Shown here in pieces: positions 18,416-64,000 of a stretch of DNA of 64,000 nt. The position numbers and the translations under genes were made by a program. Positions within the stretch are counted from its first letter, which is position 1. Each line of letters opens with the position of its first letter. The DNA is from a virus, in the IMG/VR virus record IMGVR_UViG_3300035670_000082, positions 1 to 64,000 of that record; one strand, written 5' to 3'. The notes under the pieces are model-generated. The model was not told the DNA's origin. It saw only the letters and a list, made by a program, of their open reading frames with translations, and made no database searches.

Positions 18416-18447
18416 AGTCCCGCGACAATGAATACGCGCGCGGGACT
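18416..18447. repeat. Inverted repeat of the GCGGGACT motif
   Basis: AGTCCCGCG (18416-18424) and CGCGGGACT (18439-18447), a perfect 9-bp stem with a 14-nt loop. Confidence 0.8.
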
Positions 18448-18628: not shown

Positions 18629-18695
18629 ATTACACCCCCTTGTTATTGTGGGGGGTAGGAATCAACTACTAGCCCTTCGGGGGAAAGGAATCAGA
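18629..18695 (+). promoter_or_regulatory. Degenerate bipartite element with hairpin leader
   Basis: TTACAC (18630-18635) replaces TCACAC and no GTGCGTA is present. CAACTACTAG (18663-18672) and the mini-hairpin CCC-TTCG-GGG (18673-18682) are kept before GGGGGAAAGGA. Confidence 0.7.
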
Positions 18696-19097: not shown

Positions 19098-19098
19098 A

Positions 19099-19175
19099 TC
19101 ACACTTCACGACGATTCGTGCGTAATGTAATCAGCAACTACTAGACCGCCGAAGGGCGGGGAAAGGAATACCGAA
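19099..19175 (+). promoter_or_regulatory. Bipartite element and hairpin leader
   Basis: TCACAC (19099-19104), 13 bases, GTGCGTA (19118-19124), CAACTACTAG (19135-19144), hairpin CCGCC-GAAG-GGCGG (19146-19159). The stem sequence differs from CCGAC/GTCGG but pairing is kept. Confidence 0.85.
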
Positions 19176-19505
19176 ATGAGCAAGTATGAAACCCAATCGG
19201 GTATGCCGAACCTTCTCAAAGAAGGCACGGAAACCGACAAAATTATGTGGGCTATCTACAACGAAATGGTGAGCGGATACCGCGTACCCGTAGAGGACAC
19301 AAAAACCGTCATGGCGTTGCGTGACGCGAAGGCGCGAGGATACTCGGAGATGTTCCGCGCTATCTACCGTGCCAAGCGTGAGCACCGTCTCGCGTATCTC
19401 ACGATGACTCAGCGTCAATGGCAGAGAAAGACACACCGACCGTCGCGTGCGCGTCACCACGACAGTATCGCTATCCGCGAGAAGTATGTGAGGTGCGCGC
19501 GATGA
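19176..19505 (+). CDS. Hypothetical basic helical protein, 109 residues
   Basis: Mostly helical (KEGTETDKIMWAIYNEMVSG, then MALRDAKARGYSEMFRAIYR) with a very basic C-terminus (RQWQRKTHRPSRARHHDS). Probably nucleic-acid binding. First of a small plus-strand operon running to 19915. Confidence 0.75.
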   Translation: MSKYETQSGMPNLLKEGTETDKIMWAIYNEMVSGYRVPVEDTKTVMALRDAKARGYSEMFRAIYRAKREHRLAYLTMTQRQWQRKTHRPSRARHHDSIAIREKYVRCAR

Positions 19506-19684
19506 ACGATGAACGAACCTGCGAGTACTGCGAAACCGTCACGGACAAGTGGTGGCTAGCACCTATCGGGATACTCCCCGACGGAAGCGACTACGAGTAC
19601 GACGGCACTGTCGTATGCGAAGCGTGCTACGACGGACACTGCACGAAATGGGACATACAACCACTACCCGAGCGCGGTGAATGA
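19502..19684 (+). CDS. Zinc-ribbon protein, 60 residues
   Basis: Start ATG overlaps the upstream stop. CEYCETVTDKWWLAP gives one CxxC; VVCEACYDGHCTKW gives a second cluster of three cysteines. A compact zinc ribbon with no known partner. Confidence 0.8.
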   Translation: MNDERTCEYCETVTDKWWLAPIGILPDGSDYEYDGTVVCEACYDGHCTKWDIQPLPERGE

Positions 19685-19687
19685 CCC

Positions 19688-19771
19688 GTGAACTATGTAG
19701 CGACATTCTTAGTCACCTACGGCGTGGTCATAGTGGTAGCGAACTACTTCATGATGAAAGGGGGGAAATAA
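19688..19771 (+). CDS. Membrane miniprotein, 27 residues
   Basis: GTG start; product NYVATFLVTYGVVIVVANYF plus a short MMKGGK tail. It is almost entirely one hydrophobic helix. The frame fits exactly between two zinc-ribbon genes of the same unit. Single-helix phage miniproteins often modulate a membrane target. Confidence 0.6.
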   Translation: MNYVATFLVTYGVVIVVANYFMMKGGK

Positions 19772-19774
19772 CCT

Positions 19775-19915
19775 ATGAGCAACGAGCACGAAGGACGCGA
19801 GTGTCCTATCTGTGATGATGTAATGACGGAGAGGCATGACAACTATCTGCCTACTTGGAGTGACCGCCACGACGACATAGTGTGTTGGTGGTGCGCGCAC
19901 CACGCGACACCCTGA
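19775..19915 (+). CDS. Zinc-ribbon miniprotein, 46 residues
   Basis: CPICDDV near residue 10 and CWWCAHH near 38 give the CxxC pairs of a classic zinc ribbon, with an acidic/His-rich middle. GGGGGGAAATAACCT precedes the ATG. Last gene before a terminator. Confidence 0.75.
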   Translation: MSNEHEGRECPICDDVMTERHDNYLPTWSDRHDDIVCWWCAHHATP

Positions 19916-38149: not shown

Positions 38150-40621
38150 ATGGGGGTGTCTGGTCTTTATGTAAAAGTTCTTGGAACCCCTATTGGTGGG
38201 ATGTCCGAGGTCGATGGTGATGGGGACGGGTTTGTTAGCGGTCCGGGCGGTGACAAGTACCCCGCGCCGATAAAAAAGGCTGTTGATGGGCTTAACGAAA
38301 TCCTTGTTCCTGCCAGCAATTTTGCTGAAGCAAACAAAAAGAACCGACCTTGGGCGCCTTTACTGAGGGACGGGTGGACTCCCGAATTGCGCAAACAAAT
38401 GGACGATGCGATTGATTTTGAGAAACGGTTAGCACCGATAGCCGTCGCGTGGCTGAATAAATACGGAGACAATCCCAACGCACACAGTGTCATTGTGGCA
38501 CTGTTCGACGGTGCACACAGCGTAATTGGGAACAGAGACGACCCGGATGGCAAAAAGTATTTTGAAGAATTACTGAAAAACCTTGGTGACGATGCAAACT
38601 CTAAAGAATCTCAAGATTTGTTGAAGTTCGTCAGGGATAACGGCGTTCCGGTAATGGCGCGCCACGCGAAAGTGAAAAAATGGAGCGATGATTACGTTAA
38701 TCATGTAATTGAAGCGCTTAAACAAAACGGCGTGAAAGAAACACATCCGTTTTACAAAACGATGTTGGAGTACAAAAAATACGAAAATTCTCCCGCGCAT
38801 TATCCAAACCCGATTGGCAGATGGTTGGGTCACAGCCTTATGGGGCTGGAGAAGAGCGGGAAAATTATTCAGTTCATGGCTGATGTGAAACGCGATGGCG
38901 CAGTCCCCGACGCAGATGAAGTTGCCAAAAAACTTGTAGAGAACAAAAATCGCCGAATTGGTATTGCCATATCTGAGGGTGGTCTGGAAAAGGTTTTGTC
39001 TGATGGGAAATACAAAAATTTGTTTGAAAATAATGGGCGGAATGCGTTCATTGATGCGTGGAAACTAGAGCGTAGGGATTCGCAAGAACGAAACAAATTA
39101 AGGAAGCAGATGGAGTTTCGTGCAGTTGCCGAACAGATGCTTTTTGGAATCCCTGTTGCTGGAAGCAAAAAATCTGCTCGTCCGGTGTACGGATTTTTTT
39201 TCGAGGATGGTGTTGAACAGATTGGCGTTAATGGTGGAACATATGGTCGTTTGACAATGGTTATGAAACGCGGTGTGGAAGAGCGTTCAACGATGACTGC
39301 CGGTGATTCGATTGCAGGACAATTTATGGGTGTTTCGCCACTAAATGACCCCAAGGGGATAGGTGTGCAGGGTGGCTGGGCGGGGACAGTGAATGACCAA
39401 AAGCCAGACTATTCGTCTTACAATAATCGATACTTCGAGGCTCAGATATTTGGCGGTGTAAAGATTGAAGATATCGCCTATATCGCTGTTCCTTTTAATT
39501 ATAAGTTCGCGAATAAAGATGTTCAGAAACGGTTGGCTGAGTTGGGTGTTCCTATTCAGATTTTGCCAAGAGAAGGTAAATTTGTTGAACCGGGCGACCT
39601 TCAAGGCAAATCCGATAAGCGAGAGTCTGGTGTACTGATTGCCGTTTCTGGTGAAGCAAGATTGTTTGAGGTTGACAAAGATGTCGGCTATCTGCTCGTG
39701 AATGGAGAAAGAATAGATGTTCCGAGTGTTTCAGCCGTGTTGAAATTCGGGTACTGGGATTTGGTTGATTCGGGAGAAAATGATAAAAAGAATTTGGCGG
39801 TGAAGGTTCTCGGTACGCCTATTGGCGGTATGTCTGAGATTGACGGCGACGGGGACGGGTTTGTTAGCGGTCCTGGTGGCGACAAATATCCTGCGCCACT
39901 AAAGCGGCAAATACGAGACTTAACTAAAGATTTGGCATCGCTATTTGGTAAAAGCAAAGATGAATTCGAAAAGTCTGAAGCAGGCAGAGAGTACAAACAA
40001 AGGCTCGAGAAAGTGCCAAAAGGTGTTGGTCGGGATGTTCAGTTGGAAATGATTGCCGAAAAACAGGGATTCGATAAACCACCAAAGGTTGTCTCTGCGG
40101 ATGAGATAGAGCGTCTCCGTAAAGAAGGTTGGATTATTGCATATAGAGGATTAAGTACAGCCATGGTTGAGGGTGAAGATGGGAAAGGAACTGTCATAAA
40201 AGCGAAACAAATGGCTGACGATTTCAGAAGCGGTCAATATTTTGCGGGCATGGGGGTGCACGGCAACGGCATTAACTTTGCGCTAGATAGAGAAACTGCC
40301 GATATTTATGCTCAAGGGTTTTACGAAGACGGTGGCGAAGTGCTCGTTGTGGCAATTCCGCCAGACGCATTGATGTCTATCGAGGAAATGAAAAAAACAG
40401 TCGCCGAACATCGCGCGCGTATAGGGCGTGGGGAAACAAATTTTTATGGTGATGACGATATAAGCCGTTCTTTGGCGGCGAGAGGTGTCAAGGGCACTAG
40501 GTTGAATGTTCTTGTTTCCAATGGTTGGGTCAGTGAAGTTGCTGAAGATAGTGATGCCGAACCAAATGTGGTTGTTGTTTACGATAGGTCAATGCTGGCA
40601 GTGCAGGAGAGGTCCAAATGA
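38150..40621 (+). CDS. Multidomain protein with DGDGDG modules and ADP-ribosyltransferase-like domain
   Basis: 823 residues. A repeated module VKVLGTPIGGM...DGDGDGFVSGPGGDKYPAP occurs at about 8-39 and 551-585, with an Asp/Gly run like a calcium-binding loop. Between them is a helical stretch and a segment YNNRYFEAQIFGGVKIEDIA that recalls DUF3626. After the second module, IAYRGLS (about 662), YFAGMGVHGNGINFALDRET and EVLVVAIPP fit an ADP-ribosyltransferase fold. Virion-injected ADP-ribosyltransferases are known in other phages. Ends overlap the next gene (ATGA). Confidence 0.8.
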   Translation: MGVSGLYVKVLGTPIGGMSEVDGDGDGFVSGPGGDKYPAPIKKAVDGLNEILVPASNFAEANKKNRPWAPLLRDGWTPELRKQMDDAIDFEKRLAPIAVAWLNKYGDNPNAHSVIVALFDGAHSVIGNRDDPDGKKYFEELLKNLGDDANSKESQDLLKFVRDNGVPVMARHAKVKKWSDDYVNHVIEALKQNGVKETHPFYKTMLEYKKYENSPAHYPNPIGRWLGHSLMGLEKSGKIIQFMADVKRDGAVPDADEVAKKLVENKNRRIGIAISEGGLEKVLSDGKYKNLFENNGRNAFIDAWKLERRDSQERNKLRKQMEFRAVAEQMLFGIPVAGSKKSARPVYGFFFEDGVEQIGVNGGTYGRLTMVMKRGVEERSTMTAGDSIAGQFMGVSPLNDPKGIGVQGGWAGTVNDQKPDYSSYNNRYFEAQIFGGVKIEDIAYIAVPFNYKFANKDVQKRLAELGVPIQILPREGKFVEPGDLQGKSDKRESGVLIAVSGEARLFEVDKDVGYLLVNGERIDVPSVSAVLKFGYWDLVDSGENDKKNLAVKVLGTPIGGMSEIDGDGDGFVSGPGGDKYPAPLKRQIRDLTKDLASLFGKSKDEFEKSEAGREYKQRLEKVPKGVGRDVQLEMIAEKQGFDKPPKVVSADEIERLRKEGWIIAYRGLSTAMVEGEDGKGTVIKAKQMADDFRSGQYFAGMGVHGNGINFALDRETADIYAQGFYEDGGEVLVVAIPPDALMSIEEMKKTVAEHRARIGRGETNFYGDDDISRSLAARGVKGTRLNVLVSNGWVSEVAEDSDAEPNVVVVYDRSMLAVQERSK

Positions 40622-42993
40622 TTTCAGTTATGTCAATACAGGAATCTAGGGACTTGGCTAAAGCCGTACAGGTTTTGACTCCGAAACAGAAGGCTGATTT
40701 TTACTACTACACATTGGTGGAAAACGAAGAACCGAAAAAAGTAATGAAAAGAATCAAAAATGGTGCTGAACAATCAACAGAAGTCAAACATCACGGAGAG
40801 TTTATTGTAAAAGTTCTCGGTACCCCTATCGGTGGTGTCGCAGATTTCGATGGTGACGGCGACGGGTTCAGGACTGGTCCCGGCGGAGAGGACAATATCC
40901 CCTACACGCCACCTGTTGACGAATTGGTTTCCTTGTTTAAAAAAGTTTTCAACAAGGTCAGAAACCTCCGCTCTGACGAATCGGCAACAGTGAATAAACT
41001 CGAATCCCGCACACCAAGCAATGAGCAACAGCGTTCGCTAAAAGCAGCACAGAACATACTCAAGGCACACGCCGAAATCTATGAGCGGTACACCAACAAG
41101 TTTGGCGATTTGACCAAAAACGAGAACGCCGTAAAAGCACTCAAATCTGTTTATCCAAATTTGGGTGATTCTGAACGCGCATTGGAAGATGGGGAAATCG
41201 CGAGAGCATTCGATAATGAGCCTCCCACACCAGCGGATATGGGCTTATTTTTGACCCTGCTCCGAAGGGGCGAGGAGCGCCCAGATGTTGCCTCGTTGCT
41301 TCGCGGTATCTCTCGCCGAGGAGACAGAAATGCGGCGGTCAAATACGACGGTGTGGCGGGAATAATTTCCGACGGCATAAAAAGCATCAAGGATGACCAA
41401 CAGCGCCCAATGATGTATTCGTATTTGGATTTCCCGCCAGACCTTTCAGTTGACGGAGCGGACATTTCCAACATGAATAAACGGTTGTGGGGAATTGAAA
41501 GGGAATTCCTGCTTCCATTGGAGCAGTTAGGGATGTCGGACGACCAACTTGACTATCTCTATGGTGCGTATGTTGCCGACCACGAGTTTGTGCACGCAGA
41601 ACATTACTACACTTGGCTCACATCCCAAAAATTTGTTATCGAACCCAAAACCAAGTCCGATGTCGCACGAAATCTTTTGATTTTGCAGAATCTGCAAAAG
41701 GAAGCAACCGTTGGTGCAAAAAATCCTAATTTCAACATAACCGACGCGGACATCAAAGAGATGGAGGAATTCATTGCTCAGGGCATAGGTGTCGTCAAGG
41801 AAGCCATGAAAAAATTGCCCGATGAGGCGATGCCGGCATTTAATGTTCCGAGCATCAGGGATGTTTTGAACGGCGATTTGCTTGACAAATATGGACGCGA
41901 AAATATACCTGATGACATTTTGTGGATTATGGCGGCGAACAGGTTGGTTACACACTTTATTTCCAACGATGCTTATGGAAATGCTTTTGTTAACAAAAAC
42001 GGTGACCGCGACAGTATCTTGGGGGTTATTAGAGACCCGAATAGTTATCAGTGGTCGTTGTGGTTTGACAATATTAATAGAAATATGATGTCTTTGATTT
42101 TTGGTGACAGAGGTAGGCGCATGGTGCGCACGTCCCCGTATGCCGGAGTCAATTTTTCTGAATGGGTTGCCGAACAGCGAGCGGCAGATAAAATCGGTTT
42201 GACGCCACCTCATGAAGAACTTGTTGATGCTTGGAGAAAAATGTCGTCGTGGATTGAAAAGAAGGAAGCCAAACGAGACAATGTTCATGAGCACTCTGGT
42301 TTGTCTTTCAGTAAAACTGGTGCAATTGAAATTTCGTTGTGTTCTGGTTTGGCTAGTGCGACACCGAGGAAAGAAAACAAAAATCAGCAATATTCTGTGG
42401 ATGAAACCAAAGAATCGAAAGTTTTGCTTGACGCGATAGCAAGTTTGGTTAGGCGTGTCTATAGAAGAGGAAAGAGAATCGCAAAGAAATTGAAGCGAAA
42501 GACGGGAGATGATATGTCTGTTTACAACCAAAGGGTTGCCGAGTTCTATCTTGTCCAATCGAATGCTGTCGATATTAAGGGTGAGTCCCCTTACACGAAC
42601 AATGCTTTGCGTGAAAGAATCAAGGCACGGGTGATGGCTGGAAGCGAAGGTGGCAGACCTGGGCAGTGGTCTGCTCGTAAAGCACAGTTGGTAGCCGTCA
42701 GATACCGTAAGGCTGGCGGTGGGTACAAGAAGGGTAAGTCGCCGAACAAGAAGCAACGCTCGTTGAAGAAGTGGACGCGTGAGAAGTGGCGTACTTCTGA
42801 CGGCAAACCAGCGTTGCGTGGAGGCAAAATGCGCAGGTATCTGCCCGATAAGGTGTGGGGTCGTTTGACGCCTGCGCAGAGAGCGGCGACTAACCGCAAA
42901 AAGATTGAGGGCGACAAGAGGGGGCGACAGTTTGTGGCGAACACTACGATTGCTGAGCGGAGGGCTGCGAGTTACCGCAACAGGAAAAAGTGA
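40618..42993 (+). CDS. Multidomain protein with DGDGDG module, HExxH motif and DUF5872-like C-terminus
   Basis: 791 residues. The module FIVKVLGTPIGGVADFDGDG is at about 62-84. A long helical region follows with ADHEFVHAEHYYT (HExxH at about 322), suggesting zinc-protease ancestry. The last 120 residues (GGRPGQWSARKAQLVAVRYR, YKKGKSPNKKQRSLKKWTRE, WGRLTPAQRAATNRKKIEGD) are a basic DUF5872-like domain also seen in giant-virus and phage proteins. It shares the module with the upstream and 55360 genes. Likely a virion or injected protein. Confidence 0.8.
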   Translation: MISVMSIQESRDLAKAVQVLTPKQKADFYYYTLVENEEPKKVMKRIKNGAEQSTEVKHHGEFIVKVLGTPIGGVADFDGDGDGFRTGPGGEDNIPYTPPVDELVSLFKKVFNKVRNLRSDESATVNKLESRTPSNEQQRSLKAAQNILKAHAEIYERYTNKFGDLTKNENAVKALKSVYPNLGDSERALEDGEIARAFDNEPPTPADMGLFLTLLRRGEERPDVASLLRGISRRGDRNAAVKYDGVAGIISDGIKSIKDDQQRPMMYSYLDFPPDLSVDGADISNMNKRLWGIEREFLLPLEQLGMSDDQLDYLYGAYVADHEFVHAEHYYTWLTSQKFVIEPKTKSDVARNLLILQNLQKEATVGAKNPNFNITDADIKEMEEFIAQGIGVVKEAMKKLPDEAMPAFNVPSIRDVLNGDLLDKYGRENIPDDILWIMAANRLVTHFISNDAYGNAFVNKNGDRDSILGVIRDPNSYQWSLWFDNINRNMMSLIFGDRGRRMVRTSPYAGVNFSEWVAEQRAADKIGLTPPHEELVDAWRKMSSWIEKKEAKRDNVHEHSGLSFSKTGAIEISLCSGLASATPRKENKNQQYSVDETKESKVLLDAIASLVRRVYRRGKRIAKKLKRKTGDDMSVYNQRVAEFYLVQSNAVDIKGESPYTNNALRERIKARVMAGSEGGRPGQWSARKAQLVAVRYRKAGGGYKKGKSPNKKQRSLKKWTREKWRTSDGKPALRGGKMRRYLPDKVWGRLTPAQRAATNRKKIEGDKRGRQFVANTTIAERRAASYRNRKK

Positions 42994-43460: not shown

Positions 43461-43853
43461 ATGACGACAGAACTCACCAACAGTTACTATTTGCCGTTCG
43501 ACACCTCACTCGCTGCCTGTCGAGGTAGTGCGGAAATCAGTCTGTTCTATCCAAAAGGTGAGTCATCTGCTCATGTCCGTTCAAGGGAACAGAAGAAAGC
43601 GATTTCTATTTGCATGGGTTGTGAAGTTCGTGAACCTTGTGCGGAGTATGCAATCAAAAACGAGTCATTCGGCATTTGGGGTGGCATGACGGAATCGGAA
43701 CGCGAGTATCACCGCATCGAGCGAAACATCGCGCTGCCTCAGGGAACCGTTTCGGATGTTGCGAAACGAACACGGAGACTTTACAACGACAAGGAGAGCA
43801 AACGACGCAAACGGCAGGCGCTCGCTCTTCAGAACAAAGAGGAAACCAAGTAG
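43461..43853 (+). CDS. WhiB-like iron-sulfur regulator
   Basis: 130 residues. AACRGSAEISLFYP (first Cys at 19), then AISICMGCEVREPCAEYAIK (three Cys in CxxC-x5-C), then the turn SFGIWGGMTESER, and a basic C-terminal DNA-binding tail (TRRLYNDKESKRRKRQ). The layout is complete for WhiB. It may redirect host sigma-dependent transcription, as shown for phage WhiB TM4. It precedes the primase-helicase by 3 bases. Confidence 0.95.
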   Translation: MTTELTNSYYLPFDTSLAACRGSAEISLFYPKGESSAHVRSREQKKAISICMGCEVREPCAEYAIKNESFGIWGGMTESEREYHRIERNIALPQGTVSDVAKRTRRLYNDKESKRRKRQALALQNKEETK

Positions 43854-50513: not shown

Positions 50514-52445
50514 CTACTTGATTGGACAAGCCCCCGAAGCGCATGCGTCGATATCCAAATCTTCTCCCGATATCGGCGTAAGGGCAACACTCAGGTCAAT
50601 TTTTGAGACCATTTGGTTGTAGTGCTCTTCCGTGCACGCCTCGTAAGGGGGTAGCGGGAAGTTGTGGTCGCTGTGGAGAAGGAATGATACCGATTTGATA
50701 CCATCGTCGTAGTTCTTGGAAAGCCATTCCTTGATGGAGTCAAGTTCTTCTTTGCGGTAGTAAACGGTGACTGAAACGGCATTGTCAGCCCATACCGTCT
50801 GCATTTTTTTGACCCATTCCAACTGTTCAATGGCTGTCATGTTTTCTGCGAGGACAGCGCCCTGTGGTGATTTGCAGGGGAATTCGACCACATATTTGGT
50901 GTGGTCTTCCCGACCGTCGAGACCGATATCCCACACGACCTTATGCCCCCGTTTGCGCAGGTTGTCCACAAGCGGGTCGGCTGCGCCGAAACGCACTCTA
51001 CGGATGTAGAACGGCGCGAACGCTGGATGCACACCCGGAGTGACACCTGGCAGTAGGGAAAGTGTTCCAGATGGCTGAACCGTCGTAAGCCTCACCGAAC
51101 GGGGGAAACCGTGTTTCTGTGAATACTCTTGGTCGAGTTTGTCCAACGCTTCATACGCATCGGAAAGCCAAGAAATTTGTTCGTCATTGCATTGAAGAAT
51201 CCCTGTAATGCTTTGCCCAAGTCGAGCATTTTTGTTCACAATTTCTGTTGTCTTTTCATACGGATACGAAAGGCGTGTTATCTGCTTTTGGAGCATGTAA
51301 AGAAGGCGCGATATTTCCTTCAACTGTTTCAATGACTCCACATTCGGCAGGAAGATAGTCGCAAGGTTGCATGACTCGCCGTCCCCAAGCCCAATTTCTG
51401 CGCAAGGATTGAATCCCTCAATGCTGTTGTCGGGTCGGACATCGCCAAGGCGACCATGCTTCCGAGCAAGACGCCTGTTCACGAGTCCGTAAGGTTCCCC
51501 GTTACCTGTGTACCCCTTCCAGAGTTCTGGCATGATGTGGTCGTAGTAGTCGGCGTAAATGCTGTTGTTGCTGTTGGCACGCCAAGCGGGGATGTCGCCG
51601 TTAGCCCAATTTTTTGCACGAAGGAAAAGGACATCGTCGGGGTCGCCGATGGCAATCTGCGCAGACCTTCGGGATGAACCTGAGACGACAATCCGACCGA
51701 TGATGTTGCAAATATCTAGAACATCTACTGACCGCAACTTTTTCCCTTCGCGGTTTCTCATCACCTTGCAGATATCTTCGATGCCGTCAACGAGCGCCCC
51801 CGGTCCGCTGGCGGTGCCACCGAAGGTTTTGAGTGGTGCACCGAATTCGCGGATGAGAATAGTGGAGTAGGTGAAAGATTTGCCCGTATCGAAGAAAGAC
51901 TTCAATACGCTGTGCAGAAGACGACGCCACCCTTGCCTGCTGTCGGGGACAATGATGTCAGCATCATTGGTTCGCTCGTGCGTGATTTTTACATTGGCGC
52001 GAACTTTGGGCAAGTCGTGAATTTTTGAGCGCTCAACCGAAAAACCCACTCCGCCACCGAGCATCAAGTAATCAAACAAAAGTTCGAAATCTTCAATTCT
52101 TTCAATGTTTGTGAAATAGCAGTTGTTTAGCGAGGACGCGTTGAACTTCTTGATGAGTGGAGTCCCCAACTGCCACAGTGCGCGACCAGAGAAAGAGCAA
52201 CGAAGGTTGTAGACATGGTCGAAGATTGCTTCCAAATCTTTTTGTGTCCACGGCACGCCGATTTCTACCGCTCCGTTTACGCAGCGCGACACGGTTTCAA
52301 TCCATGTTTCGTTTCGTTCAACACCCTCGATTGGGCGAGAGTATGTTCGAAGGTAGACGATTTCCCCAAGTCCACTGAAACCCCAAGGCGGAACCACATT
52401 TCGATACTGCTCCAAAAACTGTGGGGTCAAGCCGACTTTCTCCAT
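50514..52445 (-). CDS. nrdJ: Class II (adenosylcobalamin-dependent) ribonucleotide reductase
   Basis: 643 residues, in the size range of the monomeric class II enzyme. Active-site cysteines appear as NNCYF (Cys 109), FNPCAEI (346-350, Cys 348) and ESCNLATIFLP (Cys 359); the C-terminal CASGACPIK is the redox-shuttle pair. It makes deoxynucleoside triphosphates from ribonucleotides using B12 as radical source. It has no small subunit. Its neighbour is the hypothetical gene at 50113. It fits with the CobS/CobT-like pair at 8.1-10.4 kb. Confidence 0.95.
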   Translation of the reverse strand: MEKVGLTPQFLEQYRNVVPPWGFSGLGEIVYLRTYSRPIEGVERNETWIETVSRCVNGAVEIGVPWTQKDLEAIFDHVYNLRCSFSGRALWQLGTPLIKKFNASSLNNCYFTNIERIEDFELLFDYLMLGGGVGFSVERSKIHDLPKVRANVKITHERTNDADIIVPDSRQGWRRLLHSVLKSFFDTGKSFTYSTILIREFGAPLKTFGGTASGPGALVDGIEDICKVMRNREGKKLRSVDVLDICNIIGRIVVSGSSRRSAQIAIGDPDDVLFLRAKNWANGDIPAWRANSNNSIYADYYDHIMPELWKGYTGNGEPYGLVNRRLARKHGRLGDVRPDNSIEGFNPCAEIGLGDGESCNLATIFLPNVESLKQLKEISRLLYMLQKQITRLSYPYEKTTEIVNKNARLGQSITGILQCNDEQISWLSDAYEALDKLDQEYSQKHGFPRSVRLTTVQPSGTLSLLPGVTPGVHPAFAPFYIRRVRFGAADPLVDNLRKRGHKVVWDIGLDGREDHTKYVVEFPCKSPQGAVLAENMTAIEQLEWVKKMQTVWADNAVSVTVYYRKEELDSIKEWLSKNYDDGIKSVSFLLHSDHNFPLPPYEACTEEHYNQMVSKIDLSVALTPISGEDLDIDACASGACPIK

Positions 52446-56323: not shown

Positions 56324-57640
56324 TCAGGCAGGAGCGTTGTCAAACGAGACGGCAACGAATGCCTCAGGACGCTTGACAGCGAGTGCGAGACGCTGCTCGG
56401 CGAGCACCACAATCGCGTTGCGCACGAAGAAGTCTGCGTGCTGCTCGCTGATTCGGATGCTTGCCTGCTCACGGTCGTAAATCTGCGCGGCAGTGCCGAA
56501 CGCACCGACAAGAGCGGTGCCTTCTGCGATTGCCGGCGTGTCCACAACCGGGATGCGCCACAGACGCGGGGTTCCGCCGAGGGCGACCGAGACAGCAACC
56601 AGGTACTGTCCGTTGTCGTCCTTCGACAGTTCGATGTCTTCCCAGTCGTTCGGGTGCATCACGACGCCCGTCGGCTCGTAGTACGCGAGGAACGACAAGG
56701 TGGCTGCGCGACGAATCGCGTCCGCCTTGAGGTCACCCGTCGCACCAGAAGACCAATCGTAGGTCTGGATGCCCGTGGTCTGGAGAACACCTTCGAGGTT
56801 CTCGCCGGTGCCGTCACCGTTCAGGATTTGCTCGTCCTCAAGAAGACGCAGACCGTACATCAACTCGTTGTCGATGATGCTACGGAGTTGCGGCTCGTCG
56901 GCGAGCACATTGCGGTGCGCTGCTTCCCAGTGGGCAAGCGTGCGAACCGGTGCCTGATGACCAGTGAACTTCAAACCAGACTGTGGCTTCGCAGTGAACA
57001 CTGCGGGCGAACCCGAGCGCTCAGAGACAGGAGCCGCATTGTTGGTCGGCGCGCCAGTGACGGCGGTGTAACCAATCTGGCGGAAGTACTCAATCACCGC
57101 AGCGTTCGTGGTGCGCTTCGGGAAGAGGTCGCGGACGCGACGGGTACGGGTCGGCGAGACCACCATCGGGTCACGCTGGAACTGACCGAACTGTTCAACC
57201 GAGGAAAGCGGCGAAGCAGGACCGGTCGGCATACCCGTGAAGACATCCTTCACGTTGTACACGAACGGAGCCGGCATGTTCGCGCCGTTTCGACCAGAGG
57301 CGAGCGCCTTGTACTCATCGGACGAAAGGAACGCTTCGCCGAGGCTCTTGATGCTCATTCTCTGCTCGACCTGCTGAGGCTGTGCATTCGAAGCCTGCGC
57401 AACCGACTCAGAGGCAGGAGCCGAAGCCCACTTCTCTGCATCGCGCATTCCCTCAATGCCCTCAATCAGGCTCTTGATTTCACGGATGTCCGACATATTG
57501 CGGTCGAACGCTGACTTTTGTTCGGCTGAAACAACAACAGTGCCATCTTCGACTTTGAACGAGTCGGCAATGGTCTTGTTGTCAGCCATCTTTTCGCGAA
57601 GTGCGTTCTGCAACTCGCGAAGACGAATGTCGTCTGACAT
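56324..57640 (-). CDS. HK97-fold major capsid protein
   Basis: 438 residues. N-terminal helical scaffolding-like arm (ELQNALREKMADNKTIADSF to about 110), then the body: SPLSSVEQFGQFQRDPMVVS, QIGYTAVTGAPTNNAAPVSE, ILNGDGTGENLEGVLQTTGI and VVMHPNDWEDIELSKDDNGQ, ending RPEAFVAVSFDNAPA. These are the E-loop, A-domain and P-domain landmarks of HK97 capsid proteins. Ribosome binding site AGGAGGAAATC. No protease signature next to it. Confidence 0.95.
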   Translation of the reverse strand: MSDDIRLRELQNALREKMADNKTIADSFKVEDGTVVVSAEQKSAFDRNMSDIREIKSLIEGIEGMRDAEKWASAPASESVAQASNAQPQQVEQRMSIKSLGEAFLSSDEYKALASGRNGANMPAPFVYNVKDVFTGMPTGPASPLSSVEQFGQFQRDPMVVSPTRTRRVRDLFPKRTTNAAVIEYFRQIGYTAVTGAPTNNAAPVSERSGSPAVFTAKPQSGLKFTGHQAPVRTLAHWEAAHRNVLADEPQLRSIIDNELMYGLRLLEDEQILNGDGTGENLEGVLQTTGIQTYDWSSGATGDLKADAIRRAATLSFLAYYEPTGVVMHPNDWEDIELSKDDNGQYLVAVSVALGGTPRLWRIPVVDTPAIAEGTALVGAFGTAAQIYDREQASIRISEQHADFFVRNAIVVLAEQRLALAVKRPEAFVAVSFDNAPA

Positions 57641-57804: not shown

Positions 57805-59157
57805 TTACAGTCGGTGATATCGTTTCACAACCTTGGGGCAACACCCACCCGAATACTTAACCCCCATAACACCGTCACCGTAAGCGTCGTCCCTTTTTGC
57901 TGACTTCCCGCTCTTGGAAGGATGATTGTCGGGAACCAAGTCGAAATCCCTGCGGGTTCCGCGCTTTGTGGGCTTGTCAGACTTCATGGATTCAAAGAAA
58001 TCCGACAAACGTTTTTTCGCAGACGCCTCGCCACCAGAAGAAAGACCGCGTAGATACACAATCTTCGCGTCCCTCAAATTGGTTCGATGTATCTGCTTGG
58101 ATACATCAGCATTGTGGCGTCGAACAAGAACAGCGAGGCGGTTCACGGTCTCGCTATCAATTTGTGGACTCTTTCGCTTCGGCTTTCTGACAACCTTTTC
58201 CTCAATAAAGGATGAATCAACCAAACTCTTGCGACCGCGACTGGGTTTATTGCCTCTCCTGTTTTTCGGGCTTCCATCATTCCGCAGTTTCATGACTCGG
58301 TTGTAATCTGAGCCGTTGGAGCACGGCATCCAAACAGTTTTCCCGTCACGAGCAACATACCTTCGTATGCCGATACAGCCAAGATTTCTTGCACGGATAC
58401 GCGCCGAATCAGGATTCGGGAATGTGTCTGGGTCGGTAGACCTGCTGACAAAAGGAACAAATCCTTTTGTGTCCATTTTCGCTGATACCAAACCGCCGTC
58501 AGGAAGTGTCTCAATTCCCGCCACCGGACGCTCACGCAACTTCTCGAATCTTTCCGTAGCAACACAAGGGGCGTAGTAGGTGACGCCACCAATCTTTATG
58601 ACTCGCACACCCTTACATCCGCGTCTTTTCGACGCTTCTTCAGCCATCGCCCTGTCCTCGTAATACTCGCCTGATTTGGTCAACGCCAATTGCGTTCGAT
58701 GCTCAATCTCGGTGAAACCGTGCATACGGCTCTTCGAAGAAACTTGGTAGTAGTCGTTCTTGCCTTTTTTCAACGCCTCGAATTCTTCATGAGTTGTGCA
58801 TGGCATCCACGAACCATTTTCGTGCTGATGGGCGCCTCGACAACCGAGAAGTCTCGCTACGGTGAGAGCCTGCTCACGAGATGCCACCCTCGCAGCCTTT
58901 TCGTTCGGCTTCACTTCACGCTCCAGCGCATTTGGAACTGCCGACTCGGGCATTGGACCCTCGACGGTCATACCTCTGTCTAGGGCAACTTCCAATTCTT
59001 GTTTGGTTATATCAGAATCGGAGTATTCGTCCTTGAAAGCGGAGAGAAGTTCTTTGGCGTCAGCAGAGACAGCACGGAAAGTGGTTTTCCCTTTACCTGT
59101 CGTGGCGACGAAATACGGGGAACCGTCACGTTTGCGAACAACGAACGAAGTAGTCAC
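57805..59157 (-). CDS. Protein with three LGC...WMPC repeats, 450 residues
   Basis: Three copies of a 30-residue unit: ARLLGCRGAHQHENGSWMPC at about 101-120, SKRRGCKGVRVIKIGGVTYY (with APC) at about 176-200, and ARNLGCIGIRRYVARDGKTV (with WMPC) at about 256-281. Each has two Cys that may pair. A basic linker and tail follow. Usual position next to capsid genes suggests a capsid-bound or minor head protein. Overlaps the next gene by 4 bases. Confidence 0.7.
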   Translation of the reverse strand: MTTSFVVRKRDGSPYFVATTGKGKTTFRAVSADAKELLSAFKDEYSDSDITKQELEVALDRGMTVEGPMPESAVPNALEREVKPNEKAARVASREQALTVARLLGCRGAHQHENGSWMPCTTHEEFEALKKGKNDYYQVSSKSRMHGFTEIEHRTQLALTKSGEYYEDRAMAEEASKRRGCKGVRVIKIGGVTYYAPCVATERFEKLRERPVAGIETLPDGGLVSAKMDTKGFVPFVSRSTDPDTFPNPDSARIRARNLGCIGIRRYVARDGKTVWMPCSNGSDYNRVMKLRNDGSPKNRRGNKPSRGRKSLVDSSFIEEKVVRKPKRKSPQIDSETVNRLAVLVRRHNADVSKQIHRTNLRDAKIVYLRGLSSGGEASAKKRLSDFFESMKSDKPTKRGTRRDFDLVPDNHPSKSGKSAKRDDAYGDGVMGVKYSGGCCPKVVKRYHRL

Positions 59158-59450
59158 TTTTGCTGTTTTTCCCTTAAGGCGCGAGCGATTTCTGACAACA
59201 TTTTGAAACCCTCTTCATCCCAAGGAACTTCCTCCCCGAAGGACATCATGGTTGATGTCCCAACATAAAGCGGATAATTGAAATCTTTATCTTTTTGCGC
59301 CAATTCCGAAACTCGTTCAGAATTGACATTGTTCAAAACATACTCTTCGAACTCTGGCGAGGTTGATGCGCACCTCACCTTTTCTCCGTCGAAACCCACA
59401 ACAACAGAGTTCCCCATCCCGACCATACCGACCCACATGGTTTTTTTCAT
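59154..59450 (-). CDS. Hypothetical protein, 98 residues
   Basis: MKKTMWVGMVGMGNSVVVGF, then GEKVRCASTSPEFEEYVLNN. Ends VPWDEEGFKMLSEIARALRE. Compact alpha/beta. First gene coupled (GTGA) with the repeat protein. No family is recognised. Confidence 0.7.
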   Translation of the reverse strand: MKKTMWVGMVGMGNSVVVGFDGEKVRCASTSPEFEEYVLNNVNSERVSELAQKDKDFNYPLYVGTSTMMSFGEEVPWDEEGFKMLSEIARALREKQQK

Positions 59451-59477: not shown

Positions 59478-62400
59478 TTAACGCTGAAACAGAACATCGC
59501 CAAGCCCTCGTGTCTCAAGGATGCGAATAATGGCGTTGACCCGTTTCCTGATTTGGTCAATTCTCTCCGCAACCTGTGCAGCGCTTAGAGCCTGTTTGTC
59601 ACCATACATTGCGCCAAATCGTCGTGCCATTTCTTCAAAATCAATAGCCTTAAGTCTGGGAAGAAGTTCTCTTCCCAACTCGTTCGCTGCTCCAATATCG
59701 CGCGCGCCCATTCCCGCTTTTCTATCCATATCGAAAGTCTCCCAATAATTGCGCAACCCGTCCTCGGTCACAGTTCGCCCAGGGCTTGCTCGACCAAAAT
59801 CAATCGGATATGCGACATCGTTCCCGTTTTCATCTTTAAACACCATTCCATTAAACCCATGTCTGTCGCCAACATTGAGAACAAAATTCGACAAGACATT
59901 CAATAGTCTGTCTTTTTTATTGCCTTTGTGATTATAGACGCCGACAACCATTTTCCCTTCAATCATGTTTCCACCGAAAGGAATAACAATGGTTCTACTT
60001 CCGTTTTTGAGTCCGTCAACACGACCACCTTCGCCTGGTGCTCCTAGCATTGCGGACAATTCGGCGCCCATAAGTTCAAACATGTTGGATTCGTCGCCGT
60101 TATAGCCATCTGGTGGCTTGATAACGAAACCCTCACCGGTGAGGCGTTTCCCGTCATCCGAAACACGGAAATGCAACCAAGGTGCTGCCGCACTTCCGCT
60201 CCTTAGTCGAACGAACTTTTTCCCTTTAAGTTTGTCTCTGAGTTCCTCGGGTATTTCCATGTCGGAAGCAGAGAGAGCCTGCGCAAACAAGAAGTGATGA
60301 TACTTCTTTCGGCGGAATGCGTCGTAGTCGATTCCATCCGCGTTAATCACACCCCTAGTAACCAAGTCGTTGAACACATCTTCGGTTACGAAATCTCCCC
60401 AATCCTGTGAACCGTCATGCGACACTCCCTCAAGTGCATCAAACAGGAATTCGTCTGGAACGTTTCCTATTTCACCACCATCTTGCAAATATTTAACGGC
60501 TTCATCTTTGGTGTTCATGCCGTTTTCGCCAACTTTCACCGTCTTGCCAACAACGACTCCATTTTTGTCGACGTCACCGAGTGGGGCAACCACATTGTCA
60601 CGATTCTTGCGTCGCTTTACAAACATGAATCTGTCAGCGAGTTTTCTTCGACCTTGAGGCTGCGGAGATTGCGGCGTTGGCGAAGGGGTCTGTCCAGCCT
60701 GCGGAGTCTGCGGCTGGTTTACTGGAGGGTTCGCGATATCTCGCCTGATAATTTCTTCTTGCAATCTTGCGATTCGTCTTTGATTGCTCGCCAGTTCTTT
60801 ATCTGCGCGCATGACGACGGCAACATTGTCTACATAGCGGTCTTTGACATCATCAGGAAGAATGTCGTATCGCAAACCCGTTGGACTATCCAACCCGTAA
60901 TCCTGTTTCAACCGCTCAATGTTTGCTGTTGCGTCAGATTTGTCTTTTGTTATTCTTTGTATATTTTGTTGCTGAGCGGCAAGCAGTGCTCTAAGATTCT
61001 GATTGTTTACATCGCCAGGTGGACGACGAATCGCATTATCGACGACATCATCTTGAACTTCATTTTCCCTGTCTCTGCCTCGCATAAGCACACGGAAAAG
61101 TTGTCGCGCTTTTGTCTTGGCGTCGTCCGGAAGTTCTCTGAATGCAGTTGATGCTTCCTCGGTGACCGCCAATGACGGTGGCGATGGGATATCAGCCTGA
61201 TTCGGTGGAGTGTTCTCCACGGGTTGCTTCGGTGCATCAGCCGGCTTTTTGCGTTGGCGAGGCTTGCGACCTTTCGGTGTGAGACCACCCCCACGTTTAC
61301 GTTTTTCAATTTCTTGATTAACCAAACGACCACGGTTATTGATATTCCCGTCCGCATCGTAGTATCTGCCAAAACGTCGTTCAAGTTCTGGTTTGTCATT
61401 ACCGTCGTAATCTGGTTTACGCCAATATGCGCTCTTCGGGAGACCGTTCTTCGGGAAACGGTTATTCACATTTCGGAATGAACGCGAATCGGGCATACTC
61501 TCGCCTTCCGCAAGTTCAATCATTTCCTCATCAAGGTTGATTCGCTCTGACGGCTTAGGTTGTCCGCCTTGTGGCTTGTCTTTCGGAGTTGGTGGTCGTC
61601 GAGTCGCTGACTCAGTTGCGATTTCATCAGAAGCGGCACGTCTACGGTTCCTCTTGCGAGCAGGTCTCTTGGGCTTTGGTGCTTCCGCTTCTGGTGTTTC
61701 CCCGGGCGCTGTTCGTGGTGCGCCGGGTTCTTCTATTTCTCTTCGTACACGTCGGCGTTCAGAAAAACGCAAATCTCTGTCTCGCTCATCTTCATCGCGT
61801 GGCGCCCTGCGTCTCCCACGCTCGTTTCTTTCACGCAACCGCTCATTCCTATTGTCTCGCCTTGCTCTGTCGTTTTCTTCAGCCTCACGGCGCTTACTCG
61901 GATTGCCTCTGATGTTCCACTGTCTGCTGTTCGGGTCGTACTCCCATTGGTCGCCCTCATCGTCCGTCCAAATACGGTTCTTGCCTTCTGGGTCTGGTGC
62001 ACCTTTTGGTGATTTCGGGTTGCGTAAATCGTCGCCTTTTACTCTTCGCTCTTTCTTTCTCAGGCGGTCATTTTCTAAATCGACTTCAGATGCGGGAACC
62101 CAAAAACCCTTTTCTTGTTTTCCTGCACCAATAACGTTCGCATCGGGGTTCGGTACCCATTTATAGGGTTCTCCGTCGCTACCGATAACAATCTCCCCAG
62201 GTTCTCTGCCGTCACGCTTCGGTGCGCCGGGTCTAAGGAAATCGTCAAACAGTCCTTCGTCTTCTTCGTCGGCAGCCGGTACGCGTGGAGGTCTCCGCTC
62301 GCCTGGGCGTGGTCGTCTTTCCTCCCCATCTCGCGGTGCTCGTGGTCTCCGTGGCGGTCTCGGAGCCTCTGGTGTCGGTTCTGATGCATCAGGTGTTTCT

Positions 62401-63281
62401 GGAGTCGGTTCAACTATGTCTGCTTCGTCTCGCTCTGCTCGCGGTCTGCGTCGTCCGCGTTCTCCTTCTGGTCGCGGGCGACGAGGACGCGGTGTTTCCG
62501 CATCTGCGTCACCTCTGTCTGGTCTGCTCGGAACATCAACCGAATCAGCATCAGGGCGCGGTGCAGGTTGACCCTCACCCCACCAAGGACGATTTCCTTG
62601 TTCGTTGTATCTTCGATTGCCTTCCGAAAGAACGCCTCGCCAGCCGCGACCAAGTTGACCTGCAGGTGGGTCACCTCTCTCTTCTCTTTCCTGCGCTTCA
62701 CGGAGTCGTCGCTCGCGTCGTTCTTGCCTTCTGCGCTTACGCGCCTCTCGTCTTTCGGCTCTTCCGTCTAGCGGTCTCCCACCATCATCTAAGACAACAG
62801 GGGAAGTCTCTGGAGCGTCCACATCATCAAGGACAACTTCTCTCCCTCGTGGCGGTCGTGCTACTCGGTCGGTTCCTTCTCCGCCATCCAGGACATCGGC
62901 GACACCGCGCAAACGGCGCTCTGCCCGACCTGCTTCCGCGTTCCGCTGAAGCCGTCCAGCCATACGCCTGTTTCGTCTATCTACTCGTCTGCCCCTACGC
63001 CTGTCGTCGAGGCTTTCCAATCTTTCACCAATGTTCGTGATGGAGTTTGCAATACGGCGAGCAACGCCCCACCCACAGTTTCTTCCAAAACGGTCGGTTA
63101 TCTGACCTCCGTACCGCGTACCAACAGGACATCTCCAACCGCCACGTCTACCCGTCCCAGGTATTGAAAGTGTCGGGTCCCACAACGCGCGAACACGCTT
63201 CACTTCATAAGCGAACGTGGTTTTATTCAGTTCACTTTGGAAGCGTTGCGCTTTATAGTTGATGAGATTCTTATTCGTCAT
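59478..63281 (-). CDS. 1267-residue structural-region protein with PI3/PI4-kinase-like C-terminus
   Basis: N-terminal GWRCPVGTRYGG near residues 48-60 recurs in actinophage head proteins. About 90-730 is highly charged, low-complexity Arg/Glu/Pro sequence. C-terminally, GFVIKPPDG (Lys 1055), an Glu-bearing helix (ESNMFELMGAELSA), the catalytic loop VGDRHGFN (Asp 1139, Asn 1144) and PIDFG (Asp 1161) reproduce the PI3/PI4-kinase order; D-R-H-x-x-N spacing is exact. Predicted ATP-dependent kinase domain. It may phosphorylate a capsid or host protein. Ends overlap the next gene by 11 bases. Confidence 0.8.
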   Translation of the reverse strand: MTNKNLINYKAQRFQSELNKTTFAYEVKRVRALWDPTLSIPGTGRRGGWRCPVGTRYGGQITDRFGRNCGWGVARRIANSITNIGERLESLDDRRRGRRVDRRNRRMAGRLQRNAEAGRAERRLRGVADVLDGGEGTDRVARPPRGREVVLDDVDAPETSPVVLDDGGRPLDGRAERREARKRRRQERRERRLREAQEREERGDPPAGQLGRGWRGVLSEGNRRYNEQGNRPWWGEGQPAPRPDADSVDVPSRPDRGDADAETPRPRRPRPEGERGRRRPRAERDEADIVEPTPETPDASEPTPEAPRPPRRPRAPRDGEERRPRPGERRPPRVPAADEEDEGLFDDFLRPGAPKRDGREPGEIVIGSDGEPYKWVPNPDANVIGAGKQEKGFWVPASEVDLENDRLRKKERRVKGDDLRNPKSPKGAPDPEGKNRIWTDDEGDQWEYDPNSRQWNIRGNPSKRREAEENDRARRDNRNERLRERNERGRRRAPRDEDERDRDLRFSERRRVRREIEEPGAPRTAPGETPEAEAPKPKRPARKRNRRRAASDEIATESATRRPPTPKDKPQGGQPKPSERINLDEEMIELAEGESMPDSRSFRNVNNRFPKNGLPKSAYWRKPDYDGNDKPELERRFGRYYDADGNINNRGRLVNQEIEKRKRGGGLTPKGRKPRQRKKPADAPKQPVENTPPNQADIPSPPSLAVTEEASTAFRELPDDAKTKARQLFRVLMRGRDRENEVQDDVVDNAIRRPPGDVNNQNLRALLAAQQQNIQRITKDKSDATANIERLKQDYGLDSPTGLRYDILPDDVKDRYVDNVAVVMRADKELASNQRRIARLQEEIIRRDIANPPVNQPQTPQAGQTPSPTPQSPQPQGRRKLADRFMFVKRRKNRDNVVAPLGDVDKNGVVVGKTVKVGENGMNTKDEAVKYLQDGGEIGNVPDEFLFDALEGVSHDGSQDWGDFVTEDVFNDLVTRGVINADGIDYDAFRRKKYHHFLFAQALSASDMEIPEELRDKLKGKKFVRLRSGSAAAPWLHFRVSDDGKRLTGEGFVIKPPDGYNGDESNMFELMGAELSAMLGAPGEGGRVDGLKNGSRTIVIPFGGNMIEGKMVVGVYNHKGNKKDRLLNVLSNFVLNVGDRHGFNGMVFKDENGNDVAYPIDFGRASPGRTVTEDGLRNYWETFDMDRKAGMGARDIGAANELGRELLPRLKAIDFEEMARRFGAMYGDKQALSAAQVAERIDQIRKRVNAIIRILETRGLGDVLFQR

Positions 63282-63624
63282 CGCTCATTTGTTTCTTTGT
63301 AGATATAACTTTGAAAGATTTGGTCACTTTGAGTTTTTCGGCAAGTTCCTCATAATCCTCTTCAATAAATGAGAAATCGGAACTGTAGTCAATTGACGGA
63401 CCGACCAATTTTGACAACACATATTCTAAACCATATTTCGAGTTTGAATATGTCGATTTGCCTGCAGACTCAGACAAAACATCATAAACAAAGTCCACAA
63501 TTTTTTTGTTATTGCCCCGCAACTCTATGTTCCCGTTATCATTTTTGGCGATGCATGTATCTGGTTCATCTTTGAATGAATAGAAGTAATCATTGTCTAA
63601 AACTATTTTTGCAAAATCAGCCAT
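63271..63624 (-). CDS. Hypothetical protein, 117 residues
   Basis: MADFAKIVLDNDYFYSFKDE, then ELRGNNKKIVDFVYDVLSES and IEEDYEELAEKLKVTKSFKV. Acidic alpha/beta. Lies between two kinase-motif genes. Codon use is AT-richer than its left neighbours. Function is unknown. Confidence 0.7.
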   Translation of the reverse strand: MADFAKIVLDNDYFYSFKDEPDTCIAKNDNGNIELRGNNKKIVDFVYDVLSESAGKSTYSNSKYGLEYVLSKLVGPSIDYSSDFSFIEEDYEELAEKLKVTKSFKVISTKKQMSDDE

Positions 63625-63629
63625 AACCG

Positions 63630-64000
63630 CTACCTTGTCACCTTGTCGATAATTGCTTGACGTCTACGCTTTAGGGTATCCAAGAGACCTTTCATCTGGT
63701 TGTATAGTCTCTCAGACTTATTTTGCGCGCTTCTTCGTTCTTTCTCGGGCACGTTTTTTATAGCCTGAGCAACAAAGACATCCAAATCGACATCGAGCAT
63801 GTTTTCAGTTTTTTCAATCACATTGTCCACGGCTCTTGTCAGGTCGCGAAGTATTCGTTGTTTATTTTCTGGCGTAGCGGAAGCATATAGACGTTGCATG
63901 TCGTCAAGAATTCCGCTGTCGAGTCCAAGATACCCAAATTCGACAAATTGGATTGGGTCGTCGAGAACAGCGCGACCCGCCCAGCCCAAATCAATTGGGA
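63630..64000 (-). CDS. C-terminal part of a second kinase-like protein
   Basis: The frame is open to the right edge, so the start lies outside. It begins PIDLGWAGRAVLDDPIQFVE; PIDLGWAGRA lines up with PIDFGRAS of the kinase-like domain at 59801, the DFG-type metal motif. A helical C-terminal region follows (NKQRILRDLTRAVDNVIEKT, then RLYNQMKGLLDTLKRRRQAI). I infer a truncated paralogue of the kinase domain; the catalytic loop would be outside the window. Confidence 0.65.
   Translation of the reverse strand, partial: PIDLGWAGRAVLDDPIQFVEFGYLGLDSGILDDMQRLYASATPENKQRILRDLTRAVDNVIEKTENMLDVDLDVFVAQAIKNVPEKERRSAQNKSERLYNQMKGLLDTLKRRRQAIIDKVTR

Follow-up and report, generated by a model that had tools for sequence, protein, structure and literature searches.

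Gene A (positions 59478-63281, minus strand) lies in a stretch of viral DNA of 64,000 nucleotides (nt), called the window in the following, which is part of a virus record of 100,569 bases (IMGVR_UViG_3300035670_000082). The open reading frame (ORF) starts with ATG and codes for a carrier protein of 1,267 amino acids (aa), in which an N-terminal domain (N-domain) and a charged linker precede a C-terminal atypical kinase. Comparison with related sequences goes beyond what had been seen in an earlier reading of the DNA (the original prediction), and indicates that this kinase is one of several interchangeable C-terminal domains that are attached to a common N-domain, each together with a small partner gene. 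Taking the whole chain of steps together, we consider it rather probable that gene A is part of a polymorphic effector system of large contractile-tailed phages, which would be encoded among the head genes, associated with the virion and equipped with cognate inhibitors or chaperones.

The C-Terminal Domain of Gene A Has the Catalytic Residues and the Predicted Fold of an Atypical Kinase

The original prediction assigned a PI3/PI4-type kinase to the C-terminus of gene A. The residues it named are present at exactly the numbers claimed, with Asp1139 and Asn1144 in VGDRHGFN (catalytic loop DRHGFN, 59850-59867, identified by alignment, as was Asp1161; all parts of gene A are given on the minus strand) and the metal-binding Asp1161 in PIDFG (59799-59801). 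The position of the likely ATP-binding lysine, Lys1055, was also right: alignment and model place it as the beta-3 lysine (60117-60119) and Glu1069 as the alpha-C glutamate (60075-60077). The catalytic set of the PI3/PI4-kinase superfamily (beta-3 Lys, alpha-C Glu, DRHxxN, DxG/DxS) is complete in gene A. A strict motif, D[RK]H..N followed after 8-45 residues by [ILVP][IVL]D[FLW]G, was found in 0 of 20,000 shuffles of the gene A protein and in 0 of 20,000 shuffles of the protein of its paralogue, gene B.

To the kinase domain of the window protein (residues 988-1267, 59481-60320, delimited by alignment, profiles and model) we aligned 22 of 23 picked domains. L019 was left out as a near duplicate, and the row for gene B was taken from L008 instead of L004. 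Seven columns are invariant in these 23 rows, and they are the catalytic set: K1055, E1069, D1139, R, H, N1144 and D1161. Since the 22 added rows were picked by DRH..N, only the invariance of K, E and D1161 is independent of the choice of rows. In the 75 unique kinase ORFs found with a hidden Markov model built from these rows, the covered columns hold K in 71/71, E in 71/71, D1139 in 70/72, N in 72/72 and D1161 in 72/72 cases. For the 14 closest kinase pairs (65-96% identity) the ratio of non-synonymous to synonymous substitution rates (dN/dS) was 0.08-0.20 in 10 and 0.51 in 2, with saturated dS in the remaining 2.

In Pfam, the gene A protein matches PF00454 (PI3_PI4_kinase) weakly, with 11.4 bits as a whole (E 0.29) and with 14.0 bits when the domain is used alone (E 0.048). 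At E up to 1, PF00454 is matched by 22 of the 23 kinase members (best E 1.6e-7), HipA_2 by 9 and Fam20C by 7. The L066 protein passes the Pfam cut-offs for both PF00454 (43.8 vs 27.1 bits) and HipA_2 (33.9 vs 27 bits). When the kinase profile was compared to the PDB, Fam20 was the best match (5.5e-6), followed by PI4K beta (4.4e-5), and PI3K alpha and mTOR were matched as well. Single-sequence searches with the whole protein and with kinase domains gave no useful match in PDB sequences and only chance-level matches (E 0.3 and 5) in INPHARED, and no match for the gene A protein was obtained in PHROGs. At E up to 0.1, phrog_3162, a family without assigned function, was matched by 17 of the 23 kinase members; it was present in 9 of 11 records searched.

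An AlphaFold2 model of the C-terminal 280 residues of gene A (988-1267) reached a mean predicted local distance difference test score (pLDDT) of 81.7 and a predicted template modelling score (pTM) of 0.82. It has a kinase fold, not a fold lacking a kinase core, with five helices after the DxG region. The top structural match is PI4KII beta (Z 12.9, root-mean-square deviation 4.1 over 218 residues); CotH (Z 11.9), CtkA (11.8), Fam20 (10.6), HipA (10.3) and HipT were also matched. The profiles, the model and the structural matches therefore place the domain in the wide class of atypical kinases. With conserved catalytic residues, a confident model and these matches, the kinase core that had been claimed for the C-terminus is supported, and as judged from the model the domain almost certainly has a kinase fold.

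Among viral models, the matches of the kinase include proteins of uncultured phages named PI3/PI4 kinases, a portal fusion, a protein of HHTV-1, a Mycobacterium phage ADP-ribosyltransferase (ART) protein and a Gordonia phage protein. Related kinase domains, mostly unnamed, thus already exist in head-region proteins of other tailed viruses, and the name PI3/PI4 kinase already stands on the database entries of some uncultured phage proteins.

Different Enzyme Domains Are Attached to a Common N-Terminal Domain

The N-domain of gene A comprises about residues 1-125 (62907-63281; GWRCPVGTRYGGQITDRFGRNCGWG). In the alignment of 32 sequences that defines it, 32 columns are invariant, although for about ten of them this was imposed by the pattern that served to select the sequences. 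It is followed by a charged, largely low-complexity linker (about residues 126-985, 60327-62906). The charged low-complexity stretch of the original prediction is real: residues 101-760 consist to 44% of D/E/K/R and to 15% of V/I/L/M/F/W/Y. A search of INPHARED with the N-domain gave no match, and GTDB genome contigs yielded no confirmed relative, so it provides no link to a prophage or a host.

Relatives were gathered via the N-domain, which gave 23 loci with the N-domain of A itself and 59 IMG/VR loci with the alignment. For a census, profiles were run over the 704 plus-strand ORFs of at least 100 aa in the 59 loci; duplicate sequences were counted once, and L001-L007 were left out, as their genome is already represented by L008 or by the record of the window. 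The 77 unique carriers of type AB end in a kinase (44) or a GNAT-like domain (19), are cut by the contig end (12) or have neither domain (2). Type D (29 unique carriers) has a kinase in 12 cases, two of them weak and partial matches in apparently split ORFs, a kinase plus a zincin in 1, a zincin in 7 and none of these in 9. Type C (33 unique carriers) has a pseudokinase in 10 cases and none in 23. Not included in these counts are 10 unique ORFs with a divergent N-domain (5 kinase, 1 GNAT-like, 1 pseudokinase, 3 cut) and 19 without a recognised N-type motif (13 kinase, 4 pseudokinase, 2 zincin), most of which are cut by the contig. Kinases are present in 50 of the 59 loci (48 at the stricter E < 1e-20) and GNAT-like domains in 25. 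Between N-domain and kinase lie 365 to 1,344 residues in the 44 AB kinase genes. These comparisons describe a carrier that begins with a conserved Cys domain at the N-terminus, continues with a long charged linker and ends in an exchangeable enzyme domain.

The names of the other domains have different grounds. The GNAT-like domain owes its name solely to the predicted fold; the model matches GNAT acetyltransferases with a modest Z of up to 8.8, and sequence profiles gave no match. The rows of the zincin were picked for HExxH and this motif is the sole ground for the name, and the zincin profile found no relative in the PDB. Profile comparison relates the pseudokinase of type C to the kinase (probability 94.7, E 5.7e-8), and in the profile alignment the loop His and Asn and the Asp of DxG are replaced. 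The type-C genes of L022-L028 have degenerate kinase-like ends, in most of them TDxRDRSPATL ... NELS.

A and B have one recognised enzyme domain each, and some relatives have two: kinase and zincin in type D of L022, kinase and PolyA_pol in L066. In the latter (L066:663-4166) a clear PI3/PI4- and HipA-like kinase is joined to a poly(A) polymerase head and an RNA-binding domain. One D gene without kinase or zincin, that of L034, matches DUF3626 above the Pfam cut-off (E 6.2e-10; phrog_8314 2.7e-10). In the window, an ORF of 823 aa at 38150-40621 (plus strand) has a weak DUF3626 match (E 0.0018) and matches phrog_8314 (2.9e-5). Since the DUF3626 domain occurs both there and on the type-D carrier of L034, effector types may also sit elsewhere in the genome. 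A ParB-like end suspected in the type-D protein of L028 had no match in Pfam and was dropped.

Kinase Domains Are Exchanged on Conserved N-Domains

Locus L009, a close relative of the window, illustrates how strongly the parts of a carrier can differ in conservation. It shares 85-90% identity with the window in the capsid, C and D proteins and 94% in the N-domain of the counterpart of A, whereas the kinase on this counterpart shows 18% identity. The 44 complete AB kinase genes form 946 pairs, with a median identity of 72% for the N-domain and 28% for the kinase. Even among the 61 AB-kinase pairs whose N-domains share 95% identity or more, 23 pairs have kinases that are at most 30% identical.

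The borders of an exchange can be seen in the DNA of L045 and L044, which is 94% identical over 14.1 kb. This stretch takes in genes D and C, the first carrier and some 470 codons of the second. The similarity ends within the linker of this second carrier and sets in again where the third begins, and no aligned piece of at least 150 nt was found over the exchanged kinase domain and the small ORF. One kinase differs between the two loci, with 26% identity. The same pattern was seen for L034 and L036, in three genes. The reverse, N-domains less than 75% identical with kinases at least 45% identical, was found in 10 pairs, as expected for ordinary divergence or domain transfer.

A Small Partner ORF Follows the Enzyme Domains and Tracks Their Sequence

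Directly downstream of gene A lies an ORF of 98 aa (59154-59450, minus strand), relatives of which (16-35% identical) are found after related kinases in other phages. Downstream of gene B, an ORF of 117 aa (63271-63624, minus strand), with relatives of 33-69% identity after related kinases, overlaps the start of gene A by 11 nt. We defined a partner as an ORF of 70-140 aa starting within 60 nt, and counted kinase genes whose stop is followed by at least 330 nt of sequence. A partner was present after 66 of 67 unique kinase genes, with a median gap of 6 nt; the sole exception, L065, has a longer ORF at this place, and a 68th kinase gene, in L049, was too near to the contig end to count. Partners also follow 18/18 GNAT-like and 9/9 zincin carriers, compared to 0/22 plain type-C genes, 1/15 pseudokinase carriers and 0/9 D genes without a recognised domain. 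The median gap to the next head-type gene is 331 nt after a kinase (n=49) and 311 nt after a zincin (n=7), versus 0 nt after plain C (n=22) and 1 nt after pseudokinase carriers (n=11).

For 46 dereplicated kinase genes, partner and kinase similarity were correlated (Mantel r 0.44, reached by 0 of 2,000 permutations). In the AB subset (n=32) the correlation of the partner with the kinase was 0.52 (0/2,000; partial 0.52), and that with the N-domain 0.11 (19/2,000; partial 0.08). A packaging adaptor should track the N-domain. As the partner tracks the enzyme domain and is mostly absent beside pseudokinases, it fits an inhibitor or a dedicated folding helper. Of 13 pairs of partner genes, 11 gave a finite dS, and their dN/dS was 0.03-0.32. 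Scans for close relatives of three partner families, which do not include the 98-aa ORF, retrieved only records already holding the module. One partner matched CdiI with an E-value of 0.089, which was treated as chance.

Gene A Is Located among the Head Genes of a Probable Actinobacterial Phage

The head-gene setting of the original prediction agrees with the surroundings of gene A, which include a portal-MuF fusion, a terminase and an HK97-type major capsid protein. From upstream, the order on the same strand is portal-MuF fusion, ORFs of 840 and 518 residues, gene D, an 80-aa ORF, gene C, gene B, the 117-aa ORF, gene A, the 98-aa ORF, a gene of 450 aa with DUF3721 repeats and the gene for the HK97-type major capsid protein (56324-57640, minus strand, from profile matches). 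Terminase and tail sheath are encoded on the opposite strand, and since a sheath is encoded the tail is contractile. Proteins D (832 aa, with HExxH), C (456 aa), B (1,619 aa) and A share the motif CPxG...TD...C. Of gene B (G000 63630-68489) the window holds only the 3′ end (63630-64000, minus strand), with PIDLG (of VPIDLG) of its kinase-like C-terminus at the window's edge and DRHPWN just past it. Local alignments of the N-domains of A and B give 68% identity over 160 aa and 78% over 130 aa; their kinase-like domains are 25-31% identical, depending on the alignment. The DUF3721 gene (57805-59157, minus strand; three Pfam matches, 3.7e-18) adjoins the capsid gene, and has an N-terminus similar to that of gene B (34% over 58 aa). 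Another IMG/VR contig, with a length of 133,214 bases, shows complete identity in the 12,520 bases that were compared. Among the first 23 related loci, many of which are cut short, the capsid gene was seen in 18 and the portal gene in 6.

WhiB is known from actinobacteria and their phages, and it was found in 9 of 9 large records. The closest cultured relatives of capsid and portal among the matches listed are phages of Brevibacterium, Gordonia and Streptomyces. Because of WhiB and these relatives, the hosts are probably actinobacteria. The window itself has two WhiB-like genes (12-203 and 43512-43706, plus strand), and the available text of PMC10202952, on phages isolated with a cultured 'Ca. 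Planktophila' host, reports WhiB in two Planktophila phages. Searches for integrases (tyrosine, PF00589; serine, PF00239; E up to 0.001) found no match in the nine records, which are possibly incomplete, and on this basis the phages appear to be lytic.

Elsewhere in the window, a tRNA-Ile (TAT) is encoded at 380-453, and a ribonucleotide reductase at 50514-52445 (minus strand) matches the insertion domain of the B12-dependent type. The C-terminal part of a 791-aa protein (40618-42993, plus strand) matches phrog_14910 (3.2e-20) and phrog_17747 (8.1e-16), both without assigned functions, and weakly DUF5872.

Comparison to Known Systems

MuF polymorphic toxins resemble the system described here in having a head-encoded carrier, a variable C-terminal enzyme domain and a small downstream ORF that tracks the enzyme or toxin domain. 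According to the available text of PMC5576092, such an ORF follows 89.4% of 191 toxin genes compared to 25.5% of 952 short MuF genes. MuF toxins differ by their N-terminal MuF domain: gene A has no MuF match in Pfam or PHROGs and a different N-domain, and MuF is fused to the portal here. They also belong to temperate phages, as far as the available text goes (PMC5576092), while integrases were not found in our nine records; the word 'kinase' occurs 0 times in that text. By its defining domain gene A is not a MuF toxin. A later paper (PMC12226406) reportedly deals with pyrophosphokinase domains of MuF toxins.

Polyvalent proteins are likewise large multidomain proteins of portal-terminase phages that are thought to be packaged and injected, and their domains include kinases, GNATs, peptidases and ARTs; they also occur in conjugative elements (Iyer et al. 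2017; available text of PMC5512222). The same text describes their kinases as lacking a C-terminal subdomain and as occurring primarily in (pro)phages of Verrucomicrobia-Chlamydia and Bacteroidetes. In contrast, the model of gene A keeps the helices after DxG, and its motif set is PI3/PI4/HipA-like, so that its kinase is not of the polyvalent-protein type. A further difference is that each enzyme has a small partner here, while the term 'immunity protein' has 0 occurrences in the available text of PMC5512222. By analogy, the system would work in the manner of MuF polymorphic toxins and of polyvalent proteins, using a different carrier domain and a different type of kinase. With PI4KII, CotH, CtkA, Fam20, HipA and HipT, gene A shares the predicted fold and the catalytic set; it differs from these atypical kinases by an identity of 7-17% in the structural alignments listed and by the fusion to a phage head-type carrier.

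Two cultured haloarchaeal tailed viruses have head-region proteins that match the kinase profile, gp13 of HHTV-1 (E 8.2e-7) and gp16 of HSTV-2 (4.6e-7). They were the only matches among 359 six-frame ORFs from two 20-kb stretches of these viruses, and were equated with the fold-search entries R4T6E8 and L7TJZ0 by protein length. HSTV-2 gp16 stays just under the cut-off of PF00454 with 25.5 bits, and HHTV-1 gp13 has no Pfam match. Both differ from gene A in that they do not match the N-domain profile and have archaeal hosts.

We also inspected five cultured phages whose capsid or portal proteins rank among the nearest relatives (Brevibacterium phage Cantare, Gordonia phages GMA6, ChisanaKitsune and ScarletRaider, and Streptomyces phage Gilgamesh). 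Their portal-capsid interval holds an annotated ADP-ribosyltransferase in 3/5, RNA ligases and very large unknown ORFs, and seems to be a general place for such enzymes. The idea that they hold the same kinases in this interval failed in all five. In Gilgamesh (L070), a single ORF of 13.9 kb (5979-19853) lies between portal-MuF and capsid and is matched by none of the profiles. The titles and abstract starts listed from the literature, mostly without subscription papers and preprints, included none naming the carrier or PI3/PI4-like kinases of phage heads.

Possible Functions of the Gene A Kinase

Considering these data, we propose that the N-domain holds the carrier protein in the head, and that the flexible linker would let it leave via portal and tail together with the DNA. 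At an early stage of infection, the kinase would then phosphorylate a target in the host, which is more likely to be a protein than a lipid. In the producing cell, the small partner may bind the enzyme domain and keep it inactive, or fold it, until packaging. The diversity of enzyme domains may result from recombination under an arms race with the hosts.

Several points weigh against this proposal. It is the position of the gene that suggests the presence of A in the virion, and its kinase activity is predicted from residues and fold; the domain reaches 14.0 bits for PF00454, below the gathering score of 27.1 bits. From the original prediction, the kinase core and the head-gene setting stand; lipids are one candidate target, with protein kinases and toxins of this fold close in structure, and presence in the virion is putative. 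The size limits for partners (70-140 aa) were set after the kinase cases had been seen, and in 4 of the 9 D genes that lack a recognised domain the stop is overlapped by an ORF of 66, 66, 142 or 155 aa, so that these limits undercount partners of D genes. Since type-C and pseudokinase genes abut the next gene, a partner would not fit in there, whatever the reason for this packing. Many inhibitors are acidic, but the partners are not so throughout: 62 of 93, counted without dereplication, have a net negative charge. Ten partner proteins had no convincing relatives in Pfam, neither HipS/HipB-like nor of a known immunity family, so that immunity, chaperone and adaptor roles are all candidates. 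Several of the 59 loci are near-duplicates, and the locus counts are therefore not independent. In the five cultured relatives, the profiles for kinase, pseudokinase, GNAT-like domain, zincin and N-domain gave no match in the portal-capsid interval, and PF00454 gave none in the whole records.

The kinase might instead act in the producing cell on phage proteins such as capsid, scaffold or packaging motor, as an enzyme of assembly or maturation that is not delivered. The position among head genes, adjoining capsid and portal genes, would suit this function. A maturation kinase should however be conserved together with its capsid substrate, and in L009 a kinase with 18% identity accompanies capsid, C and D proteins that are 85-90% identical; exchange is also frequent elsewhere, and the same carrier takes GNAT-like domains instead. 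We regard such a role as unlikely, and judge nearly the same for a module of the toxin-antitoxin or superinfection-exclusion kind, for which the head genes are a mere landing place. The kinase would then be a late HipA/CtkA-like enzyme acting against competing phages or in the infected cell, and the small ORF its antitoxin. HipA, HipT and CtkA are indeed among the structural matches, a small partner follows nearly every kinase gene, and one complete kinase gene (L066:663-4166) has no detected N-domain. Most kinases, however, are fused to a head-type N-domain. The 13 unique kinase ORFs without one consist of 9 that are cut by the contig at the 5′ end, 3 that directly follow a short type-D ORF and look like parts split off from it, and this single complete gene; the three scans with partners, which retrieve close relatives only, never left records that have the module.

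A phosphoinositide kinase acting on phosphatidylinositol of the host membrane is, in our view, slightly more doubtful still. Many actinobacteria make phosphatidylinositol, PI4KII alpha and beta are at the top of the structural matches, and PF00454 is the commonest Pfam match (22/23). However, the domain and PI4KII are 12-14% identical, protein kinases with this fold follow within about 1-2.6 Z, the best match of the sequence profile is Fam20, and the great divergence of kinases in one slot suggests several targets. Least probable is a catalytically dead kinase fold that serves as a binding or structural module. Type-C proteins show that a degenerate relative exists, but nearly all of the 75 kinase ORFs retain K, E, D, N and D despite a median identity of 28% (44 AB genes), and dN/dS is mostly low.

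A more far-reaching version of the proposal, namely an effector delivery system not described so far, is put forward tentatively, as falling a little short of probable. A conserved Cys-bearing cargo domain would load interchangeable enzymes into the heads of apparently lytic actinobacterial phages: atypical kinases and acetyltransferases, and in sister carriers metallopeptidases and DUF3626-like domains. Each enzyme would be silenced in the producing cell by its own small inhibitor, the pseudokinase sister may regulate or balance these enzymes, and several different kinases would arrive in the host together with the DNA and reprogram it within minutes.

If the delivery of these enzymes is confirmed, phages of aquatic actinobacteria would bring a changeable set of kinases into the cell along with their genome, and the paired small proteins would represent ready-made, matched inhibitors. 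The concept of polymorphic toxins would also be extended, from the temperate MuF phages to phages in which no integrase was detected. As shuffling of enzyme, inhibitor and carrier occurs naturally, the question of what a phage injects besides DNA would become testable.

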